From contig JAJTUQ010000006.1 of NCBI GenBank assembly GCA_021399445.1, positions 2,542,001 through 2,606,000 on the forward strand: a DNA stretch of 64,000 nt, written 5' to 3'. Below the pieces are notes generated by a model. It searched no databases and was not told the origin of the DNA. It saw only the letters and a program-made list of their open reading frames with translations. The DNA is from Xylogone sp. PMI_703. Taxonomy: Eukaryota; Ascomycota; Leotiomycetes. Shown here one piece after another: positions 51,279 to 56,630 of the stretch (its first letter is position 1; every line of letters starts with the position of its first letter). The position numbers and the translations under genes were made by a program.

Positions 51279-53826
51279 CTATCCCATACGTTGATACCGT
51301 TCCTTAGCCAAATCCTTGGTCTTGTTCAGGAAATCGGCATAGCTGCTCTTGGTTTGTCGCTGGGCCTCTTCAACGGCGTCGCCTAGCCTTCCTCCCTCTG
51401 CTCCTAATCCTACGCCCTGAGCATATACATGCGTCTCAATTGACTCTGTCCTGCCCGTGCCCTGAGCTCCCAGCCCTTCGCCTGCTGTCCAACCCATCTT
51501 GCCCAATAATGCTGCTCCTTTTGATTGAACCGGAGCTGCCAGCTCTTCATCGTTTGCTGAAGGTCCAGGACTATCTTTCGGTACTTTCTTTTGTGAAGCG
51601 GGCTGTTTTGGCTGGTTGAAAGCTTGTCTACGTTCTTTCGCTCGATCACGATAAGCAGAAGCATCAGTTCCAGCAGCTGCTGATTTCTTGAGCTTCGCGG
51701 TCGCTTTCGCAACAAGATCCTCATTCTTCAAGTTATCCCGATGGAGCTGGCTCAAACGTTCATGTTTGTTGACCTCAGCTTCGGACTTGAATTGCCGTGA
51801 GCAAAGCAAGCAACACTTTCGCTCCATATCCGCAAAGCTCTGCTTAGGCGGTGCCTTTTCTGCCTCCTTAGCTTCTTCTTCATTTGCCGACCCCGAGTCT
51901 TCTGCAGTCGCGGACGGGTCTTTAGCTGGTAATCCATGTAATTCTGCATGCCTATTGTTCCAGAATTGAAGATGAGGTGCAACAACAGTAGCTTCTTTTT
52001 CGGCTTTCCGCTTTTTAGATTTTGCGTCGTCGGGCTTCTTACCCTCCACAATACCTTCGTTTGCTCCTTTTGCCGCAGCGTTCGTCTGTTCAACTTCTTT
52101 AAATGTAGTCGGATCTGTCTGCTCAGATACGATAAGTTCACTTGCGTAGGCTGCTTCATCCCAGTACATCAATTTGAGAGATGGGTTTAACAGTGGACTA
52201 AACGTAAAACGAGAAGACTCGGGGCCTGTAGGATATAGCATCGGAACAAATACGCCAGCGTGTATGTAGGATACCATGACAGGCTTAGAAGAAATTGTGA
52301 ACTTTTCTGCCGCATTGTATTTGGCCATAGCCGCCTTCGCATCATCCACAGTGTTGAACTCGGCAAATCCATATCTCCAGCTGTCGTTGGTTTTCCTGTC
52401 TCGGACTAACAGAACTCGCCGTAATGTTCCTTCGGGGGCACCTAGAGCGACATCTCTTGATGTGGAGGAGATTTTTGGCTTCTTCGCCGTGTGGACATCT
52501 GAGGAGGCGGTGCTTTCTTTGTTTTTGTAGAGTTTACTCACTCCCTTTGCAAGAATTTCTTCAGTTACGCTGGGTTCCAACCCTCGGAGCAGAAGGAACT
52601 GGGAGGCAGTATTGTCGGGAGAAACATCAGTATCCCCGGTAGTTGCAAGTCCTGAAAATGCGGACATTCGAGCCGGCGCAACGAGACCCTGTTGGGCAGC
52701 AACTTTGCTAAGTTAGTAAGGTTCTCCTCACTCCTAGAGAGGGACACCAACCAGTCCTTGGCGCATTACAGCGGAAACAGAGTGTCCTGTGCGGATAGTT
52801 TGCAAAGTTACACTGTAGACATCAGATAAAAGTTACTAATAGTCGAGGAGGTAGAACATACAACATCGCACATCCAGTCATCTTCGTTCCTTCCAGCAGG
52901 CTCGCGTTCTTCTCTTTCTCGACTGAAGGTTATGCGCACATATGCCGGAGCTCTCGAAGAATCTTGGTCGGAGTGAGACGGTCCATACAACCCTACTTTT
53001 GGATGAAACCGATCAAGGAATCGTGTTGCCTCGCCGATTGTGCTAAACTGAGCAAAAGCGAACTGTCTTGATAATCCTAAATTCCGTAAGAGATGGTAAA
53101 TCCTAAGAACGAAGCAGGTCTCTTACCAGTCTTCTTATCTTTAATTAATCGTATCTCTTCAATACCATCAACATGAAGGCTATCTTTAAGCTCGTTTAAG
53201 ATCTGTATAACACACAGCGGCCACAGTGGCCATTCCAATGCTTAGCCAGAGTCCACAAATATATTCTTCGTTTTAAAGCACTTAGGCTGTAATAGAATAA
53301 TGATGACTAAGGTAGAAATTCCGCAAAAGGGGAAGGGGTAGGCCAACGTCTTCCTGTGTAAAATGCACCGGGAGTCCTTCAAGTATAACCGTTCGACTTG
53401 GCTGTCCCTTGTAAGACTGGGACCGAGCTGGACTGCGACTCCTGTGGCCACTCGGGGATTCATAATCCTCCCGATCACGATCGATGTAGCGATCTGATCC
53501 CCCGCGGTGTGAATATCTCGATCTCTCGGAGCCGCGATCATGGTCACGGTTGTACTGATCAGACTCATACCGATCTCGGCCACTGCGGTAATATCGGTCA
53601 TCCTCGTATCGCCGTGAAGAATGGCTGTTATCTTATGGAGTCCTTGTTAGTATAGATCAAAATTACGTTCTATACCCTACTCCGAGTTACCTCTCGTCCA
53701 GGCTTGGTCCTCTCGTGAGTGTCGTTGAGGCGACTCATCTCGATATCTAGGATAATCGTCATACATAGTAGAATCGTGTCCCGAGCCGCGATTAGGACTC
53801 GGTCTAGAAGATCGTGGGCGATCCAT
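51279..53826 (-). CDS. RBM5/RBM10-type RNA-binding splicing factor
   Basis: Predicted nuclear regulator of spliceosome assembly. Six exons (53826-53691, 53631-53348, 53202-53127, 53076-52862, 52812-52752, 52702-51279) give 731 residues. Order: Arg/Ser/Asp-rich N-terminus; RRM1 from VILEGLPVHFTQED through QFAFAQFS; a RanBP2-type zinc finger DWMCDVCNFANYPHRTLCFRC; RRM2 (FLLLRGLEPSVTEE to YGFAEFNT); a C2H2-like finger CCLLCSRQFKSEAEVNKHE; and a C-terminal G-patch GAALLGKMGWTAGEGLGAQG. This is the animal RBM5/10 plan. Donors GTTGGC and GTTGGT are unusual; an intron acceptor at AAAG (52703) rather than the nearer TTAG is needed for frame. Confidence 0.92.
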
Positions 53827-55996: not shown

Positions 55997-56402
55997 TGCT
56001 GGTTAGTTCCAGCGCATCACCGCAATCAGTGTGAGAAGGATTGGTGATGCAATATCGGAAAGTTACTTTGGCTTCGTACTCGTACTGTAAGCGAGTAGCC
56101 AATTGGCTGCCCCTCCATTCTGCTGTTGCAAAAAAGCTCCGATATTCACATAAATCCCGTAATTATTACGGCTTTAATTTACTTTTCATTTTGATAATAT
56201 TTGTAATTGAGTAGATTTACTGTTAGACGACATAACTATATTCAATAGAAATACTGTAAAATGTTCCTTAGAGCGGGCGCACCTGAGTTACTCCGTACTG
56301 AGAAGGATAATTGATTTTCCAGGCCATTCTTCCTTCCTCTTTTGGTTTTGATTCAGGTGTTTGCTATTTATACCCTTAATTGTTGAAATAGATTCTATCA
56401 TT
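55997..56402. other. Intergenic region between CIA30 and the tRNA gene
   Basis: 406 bp, AT-rich, presumed CIA30 promoter and tRNA upstream region. No gene seen. Confidence 0.55.
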
Positions 56403-56420
56403 GGACAGATGGCCGAGTTG

Positions 56421-56476
56421 GTTAGTTTCCCACCAAGAGACGAGTCGTTGAGTTTGTGTATTAACTAGTTGATAAG
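56421..56476 (+). other. D-loop insertion in tRNA-Leu, intron-like
   Basis: 56 nt, starting GTTAGT and ending GATAAG, with TTAAC at 56461-56465 whose branch-type A lies 12 nt from the end. A 5-bp direct repeat GGTTA (56420-56424 and 56476-56480) makes the exact boundary ambiguous; the excised product is the same. Confidence 0.75.
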
Positions 56477-56496
56477 GTTATGGCGCCAGGTTAAGG

Positions 56497-56513
56497 TTTA
56501 TCTTAACAATGTT
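56497..56513 (+). other. Canonical tRNA anticodon-loop intron
   Basis: 17 nt directly 3' of position 37, the standard eukaryotic site. CTTAA (56502-56506) is complementary to the anticodon-loop TTAAG, as in normal pre-tRNAs cut by the splicing endonuclease. Confidence 0.85.
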
Positions 56514-56530
56514 TCCTGGTCACGAAAGTG

Positions 56531-56585
56531 GTGAGTTCAGTCTTAACTGCATAATATTAATATCCATCACTAACACAATCCATAG
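56531..56585 (+). other. Variable-arm insertion in tRNA-Leu, intron-like
   Basis: 55 nt with a consensus fungal donor GTGAGT, branch sequence CACTAAC (56568-56574; branch A 12 nt from the end) and acceptor CATAG. It follows the CAC-GAAA-GTG variable hairpin exactly. Confidence 0.8.
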
Positions 56586-56623
56586 GCGTGGGTTCGAGTC
56601 CCACTCTGTTCACTACCATTTCC

Positions 56624-56630
56624 TTTTTTT
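56624..56630 (+). terminator. Pol III T7 terminator
   Basis: Seven T residues 12 nt after the tRNA discriminator base; another T tract follows at 56634-56642. Confidence 0.75.

Follow-up and report, generated by a model that had tools for sequence, protein, structure and literature searches.

The window analysed here, a stretch of 64,000 nucleotides from the genome of Xylogone sp. PMI_703, contains at positions 56403-56612 (+) a sequence that reads as a class II tRNA-Leu(AAG) in four exons, with a mature length of 82 nt. The exons are separated by an ordinary anticodon-loop intron and by two further segments of apparently spliceosomal type, arranged as follows.

56403..56420 (+): exon 1, 5' strand of the acceptor stem, 5' strand of the D-stem and D-loop to G18
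56421..56476 (+): D-loop intron at 18/19, 56 nt, GTTAGT...TTAAC...AAG, putatively spliceosomal
56461..56465 (+): branch-site-like TTAAC of the D-loop intron, A 12 nt from the intron 3' end
56477..56496 (+): exon 2, 3' strand of the D-stem, 5' strand of the anticodon stem and anticodon AAG to G37
56497..56513 (+): canonical anticodon-loop intron, 17 nt, with CTTAA complementary to the anticodon region TTAAG
56514..56530 (+): exon 3, 3' strand of the anticodon stem and the variable-arm hairpin CAC GAAA GTG
56531..56585 (+): variable-arm intron, 55 nt, GTGAGT...CTAAC...TAG, putatively spliceosomal
56570..56574 (+): branch-site-like CTAAC of the variable-arm intron, A 12 nt from the intron 3' end
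56586..56612 (+): exon 4, T-arm, 3' strand of the acceptor stem and discriminator A

On re-reading the sequence we arrived at the same coordinates, ends, branch motifs and lengths for both GT-AG segments as the initial annotation of this DNA, which had also described the tRNA as broken into four pieces; this division is confirmed by the behaviour of ARAGORN on raw and joined sequence. In the raw window ARAGORN calls no tRNA and all Rfam families stay below their gathering scores, while at a loose threshold the Rfam tRNA model matches the T-arm piece alone (15 bits). When 56421-56476 and 56531-56585 are both taken out, the remaining 99 nt are called as tRNA-Leu(aag) with a 17-nt intron in the anticodon loop. 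Removal of the variable-arm segment alone gives no call, and removal of the D-loop segment alone gives a poor tRNA with a 73-nt intron. The product of intron removal forms a cloverleaf with all stems, the anticodon AAG and the long variable arm of a class II tRNA-Leu. The earlier description of every stem in the 82-nt product as paired holds provided that G-U pairs are counted, since these occur at acceptor pair 2-71 and D-stem pair 13-22. The AAG with which the D-loop intron ends is a less usual 3' splice site.

Split leucine tRNA genes across the genome

The assembly searched comprises 50.1 Mb in 25 contigs. It contains three more AAG genes, two on contig C1 and one on C12, each of which has a variable-arm GT-AG intron; the four genes agree in all 82 exon bases, including an exon 1 that is the same, base for base, in the window gene, the C1 pair and the C12 gene. 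GT-AG introns were also encountered in the leucine isoacceptors TAA and CAA, giving in total eight tRNA-Leu genes of three isoacceptors with ten GT-AG introns at four sites: the variable arm of AAG genes (four of four), the D-loop of AAG genes (two of four), position 26/27 of TAA genes and position 30/31 of CAA genes (each in both of the genes found). Two of the loci are the following.

L021:3881-4029 (+) and L021:4836-4986 (-): AAG pair on C1, inverted, with starts about 1.1 kb apart
L176:43-188, equal to C12:5300762-5300907: the second of the Leu(TAA) genes, whose intron at 26/27 is 53 nt long (GTTAGT...CTAAT...CAG)

The two C1 AAG genes lack precisely the 56-nt D-loop segment, so that exon 1 runs directly into exon 2 at an empty D-loop site, and their variable-arm GT-AG introns, of 50 and 52 nt, lie at the same site as in the window gene. 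The C12 AAG gene (L099) has both, a D-loop intron of 55 nt, whose body differs from that of the window D-loop intron, and a variable-arm intron of 49 nt. That the segment is cleanly absent from the C1 genes, and that different GT-AG inserts occupy one and the same variable-arm site, places these insertions beyond chance. The D-loop intron, which only two of the four genes have although their exons do not differ, is probably being gained or lost. Pairwise, the variable-arm introns are 59-70% alike (shuffled pairs average 50-52%), although for two of the six pairs the best of 200 shuffles is at least as similar; all four keep a GTRAG start, a TAG end and the YTAAY branch motif. Within the C1 pair, the exons and anticodon introns are identical, and the variable-arm introns and flanks are different. 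The first 13 bases of the D-loop intron, GTTAGTTTCCCAC, are shared by the window (56421-56433) and C12 genes, an identity that extends well past the splice site; CCCAC within it is complementary to the T-stem strand GTGGG.

The TAA gene on C1 carries a 52-nt GTTAGT...CTAAC...TAG intron at 26/27. The C12 TAA gene, found with the joined TAA sequence as query, has a 1-nt deletion between the acceptor and D-stem with its splice signals intact, and it may be a decaying copy. The two CAA genes, on C19 and C21, contain GT-AG introns at 30/31, one of 51 nt and one of 64 nt. Between them three acceptor pairs and two T-stem pairs are changed on both sides and are still paired, as expected of working tRNAs. 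The common intron site in this diverged pair points to an old event, and the intron is to be expected in related Leotiomycetes. By contrast with these isoacceptors, a CAG gene and a TAG gene, the latter from the B-box set, have the anticodon intron alone; in both cases the anticodon was assigned by eye and the ARAGORN label differs. With the GT-AG introns removed, all seven genes tested (the C12 TAA gene lay outside the set) are called tRNA-Leu by ARAGORN, five with the right anticodon. For the C1 TAA and C21 CAA genes the program sets the anticodon in another register, and we assigned it from stem pairing.

Several searches contributed to this list, with differing reach. The joined 82-mer returned the C1 pair and missed the window and C12 AAG genes, although an intact copy should match well; likewise, the joined CAA sequence recovered only the C21 gene, in two pieces, and missed the C19 gene. 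The anticodon-arm 14-mer with up to one mismatch occurs at 13 places (14 in the reversed control), four of them exact, namely in the window gene, the C1 pair and the C12 gene; at the nine one-mismatch places ARAGORN sees no tRNA. A pattern of branch motif, AG and T-arm matched 12 times in the whole genome and 22 times in the reversed control; four of the 12 matches fall in three AAG genes, one of them matched twice, and the C12 AAG gene was missed on account of its branch TAAT, so other genes may escape this pattern. The D-arm pattern gave 15 places against nine in the control, four of which were read as tRNA genes (one TAA, two CAA and one CAG), ARAGORN finding nothing at the other 11.

More generally, the genome tRNA profile search scored 63 of 1824 candidates and gave 53 matches, 50 of which were read. 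There are 103 B-box places, of which 86 among the 100 listed were read, as were 60 of the 73 in the set marked for reading. TGGTBTAGTGG occurs at 68 places (105 in the control) and AGCTCAGTTGG at 27 (19 in the control), and none of the four places newly read for the latter is clearly a tRNA. In this partial survey the ARAGORN calls gave no confident instance of the Phe and Ile isoacceptors or of most of those for Val, Pro and Arg. At roughly positions 530-690 of each of L129, L130 and L131 lies a Glu-like tRNA sequence that has an anticodon intron of about 20 nt; L130 and L131 show no TTTT run within 35 nt, and the three sequences may be tRNA-derived repeats. The 18-mer TCCTGGTCACGAAAGTGG is absent from viral contigs and occurs at seven loci in bacterial and archaeal genomes, all seven labelled bacterial, a number that is about that expected by chance on our estimate and is uninformative.

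These genes allow the possibility to be weighed that the loci are pseudogenes, tRNA genes broken by insertions from which no tRNA is made. The 1-nt deletion in the C12 TAA gene would fit such decay. Against it stand the four AAG genes, in which variable-arm introns that differ by 30-41% go with unchanged exons, and the paired stem changes in the CAA genes. Moreover, our genome DNA searches, which are weak on split genes, and our partial tRNA survey turned up no AAG, CAA or TAA gene free of interruption; a divergent intact gene for these isoacceptors may lie elsewhere in the genome. CTT and CTC, which we take to be read by the AAG isoacceptor, make up 40 of the 105 Leu codons in two window genes. 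The initial annotation had named several intact AAG genes, together with insertions that drift freely or mutated stems, as the marks of a pseudogene; for AAG we see a different pattern, in which no intact gene was found, the exons are identical and the introns differ except round the splice signals. We therefore regard loss of function of these loci as extremely improbable.

Splice signals and the nature of the extra introns

All ten introns begin with GT and end with AG, the 5' ends being GTTAGT (four), GTGAGT (three), GTAAGT, GTGAGA and GTGCGT, and in all ten there is a YTAAY motif with its A 9-15 nt from the 3' end. By a narrower test, a branch motif within 7-14 nt is present in eight of nine introns tested and in 4-12% of shuffled versions of the tRNA GT-AG introns, the product of the shuffle frequencies for those eight being 1.7e-9. 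As a sample of mRNA introns we used two window genes (encoding Ku70 and an RBM5/10-like protein) whose proteins were mapped exactly onto the window. Their seven introns, of 50, 47, 59, 145, 50, 49 and 49 nt, are all GT-AG, and two end in AAG, as does the window D-loop intron. The tRNA GT-AG introns measure 49-64 nt against 47-59 nt for six of these seven, in agreement with the earlier remark that the inserts have the length of mRNA introns. The same 7-14 nt test detects a branch motif in two of the seven mRNA introns; if anything, branch motifs are stronger in the tRNA GT-AG introns. The 145-nt intron, in the RBM5/10-like gene at window 53203-53347 (-), has no clear branch motif by this test.

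As a control, 35 ordinary tRNA introns (33 distinct) of 9-51 nt were taken by ARAGORN from 53 loci of the genome, with boundaries that can be off by a few bases. None has GT..AG ends, none has such a branch motif and one starts with GTNNGT; these introns are short, 13 distinct ones being at least 20 nt long.

We considered whether the extra segments might instead be ectopic tRNA introns of the kind that the tRNA-splicing endonuclease cuts at bulge-helix-bulge (BHB) motifs in the red alga Cyanidioschyzon merolae and many archaea. A few eukaryotes do have ectopic tRNA introns and several introns in one tRNA gene (PMC3978253, PMC4090602, PMC9602550), and in the C21 CAA intron the central helix of such a motif is complete (4/4, a value reached by 1.6% of shuffles), with 2/4 in the outer helix and 0/4 in the inner. 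In the other eight of nine introns the central helix has 2-3 of 4 pairs, which is equalled by 60-98% of shuffles for seven of them and by 14% for the C19 CAA intron (3/4), and in none of the nine do both flanking helices have at least 3/4. BHB cleavage also leaves unexplained the GT..AG ends and YTAAY motifs, which the 35 canonical introns lack. It is thus exceedingly unlikely as an account of these segments.

The exon upstream of a group I intron has U as its last base. Here the introns do end in G, but the last base of the 5' exon is G rather than U in all ten cases, and GT..AG ends with a branch motif are not known as a mark of group I introns. Very small or degenerate members of that class, like those of 56-81 nt in Phialophora rRNA, are similar in size and likewise reside in a fungal non-coding RNA (PMC3160393), yet we attach next to no probability to an origin of this kind.

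An introner origin was also considered and rejected: the D-loop intron with its flanks matches only itself in the genome, which gives no sign of a recent repeat family. Inspection by eye for a target-site duplication revealed a junction ambiguity of a few bases in the D-loop intron only.

Taken at the level of sequence, the extra segments are strongly supported as spliceosomal-type introns inside nuclear tRNA genes. Such a reading had been put forward for the window gene; the comparison within the genome supports it and extends it to eight genes, three isoacceptors, four sites and ten GT-AG introns.

Proposed transcription and maturation of the split genes

The sequence elements that may direct transcription of the window gene are listed below.

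56365..56372 (+): TATA-like TATTTATA, 31-38 nt upstream of the gene, a possible Pol III upstream element
56410..56421 (+): A box TGGCCGAGTTGG, whose final G already belongs to the D-loop intron as its first base
56591..56601 (+): B box GGTTCGAGTCC, equal to C22:2598591-2598601
56624..56630 (+): run of seven T, Pol III terminator-like, 3' of the gene

By the A-box consensus, TGGCCGAGTTGG is read as an A box. It runs through the exon-intron junction unchanged because the start of the D-loop intron, GTTA, repeats the start of exon 2, GTTA. The GT-AG introns sit between the A and B boxes, both of which stay readable, and in the eight genes the stretch from base 8 to the T-arm GGGTTC spans 116-180 nt. 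Each of the eight split genes is followed within 35 nt by four or more consecutive T. Internal boxes and T-runs are thus present as sequence motifs, and their use by Pol III is predicted. The absence of TTTT inside nine introns would favour Pol III, but is not significant (P 0.07, shuffles).

It is possible to envisage that the introns are spliced in a Pol II read-through transcript, with the tRNA subsequently cut from the spliced RNA. As a rule, spliceosomal introns belong to Pol II transcripts (PMC8527467). On the other hand, the readable A and B boxes and the T-run after each of the eight genes speak for Pol III, and spliceosomes are described as acting on the Pol III transcript U6 (PMC10484740) and on Pol I rRNA (PMC8527467). 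We consider the Pol II route highly unlikely, and prefer transcription by Pol III followed by spliceosomal removal of the GT-AG introns.

In the proposed pathway, Pol III would transcribe from the internal A and B boxes to the downstream T-run, yielding a pre-tRNA with three introns. The spliceosome would then take out the D-loop and variable-arm introns by way of the 5' splice sites GTTAGT and GTGAGT, the branch motifs TTAAC and CTAAC, and the 3' AG. Only after this step could the tRNA fold, whereupon the tRNA endonuclease and ligase would excise the ordinary 17-nt anticodon intron. It is very probable that the window locus is a functional nuclear gene transcribed by Pol III, with spliceosomal GT-AG introns and an anticodon intron handled by the endonuclease and ligase. 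Beyond the window gene, spliceosomal introns have probably settled at four tRNA-Leu sites in this fungal lineage and would form a further class of tRNA intron, such that the whole supply of AAG, CAA and TAA isoacceptors would need the spliceosome to act on Pol III transcripts before the endonuclease. We infer that Pol III transcribes these genes, that the spliceosome removes the introns, that the steps follow this order and that the cell depends on the genes.

By the textbook account, eukaryotic nuclear tRNAs have a single kind of intron, which the tRNA endonuclease cuts. If the genes described here are spliced as their sequence indicates, a single tRNA passes two unrelated splicing machineries; the spliceosome would accept tRNA precursors and translation would depend directly on the spliceosome. 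Such genes escaped the gene finders used in this work or were misnamed by them, and genomes seemingly without an essential tRNA may hold more of them. Because genes with the same exons differ in having or lacking the D-loop intron, they offer a direct test of how a Pol III gene gains or loses an intron.

Comparison with known systems

Searches of open-licence PubMed Central papers, assessed mostly from titles and the beginnings of abstracts, turned up no report of spliceosomal introns in tRNA genes, and words beginning with "spliceosom" are absent from PMC4090602 and PMC8450103. In the genome studied here U6 gives one full-length match over the cut-off (G000:C20:2705914-2706024, 73 bits), and so no intron is evident in its U6. 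A weaker full-length match at C21:3523655-3523760 (41.2 bits, below the cut-off) is perhaps a pseudogene.

One close likeness is to the mRNA-type intron in the U6 snRNA genes of Schizosaccharomyces pombe and others, where a spliceosomal intron interrupts a small fungal non-coding RNA made by Pol III (PMC10484740). Unlike U6, the host here is a tRNA; two such introns can share one gene, they occur in several genes and at four sites, and a canonical intron calls for a second splicing system. Spliceosomal introns also occur in the rRNA of lichen fungi, and engineered yeast can splice them out of rRNA made by Pol I (PMC8527467). These ascomycete nuclear introns resemble ours in residing in a structural RNA, but the RNA is there rRNA transcribed by Pol I and here tRNA, probably transcribed by Pol III.

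Nuclear or nucleomorph tRNA introns outside 37/38 have been described in C. merolae and the Guillardia theta nucleomorph. Those of C. merolae lie also in the D-loop and number up to three per gene (PMC3978253, PMC4090602, PMC9602550); there a BHB and the tRNA endonuclease are assigned, whereas here we find GT-AG ends, branch motifs and no BHB. Many ectopic tRNA introns of the G. theta nucleomorph are said to form no defined BHB (PMC3978253), and our comparison with them concerns BHB status. Finally, canonical 37/38 introns are present in the same genes as the extra introns, which differ from them in position, size and signals, GT..AG being found in none of the 35 canonical introns.
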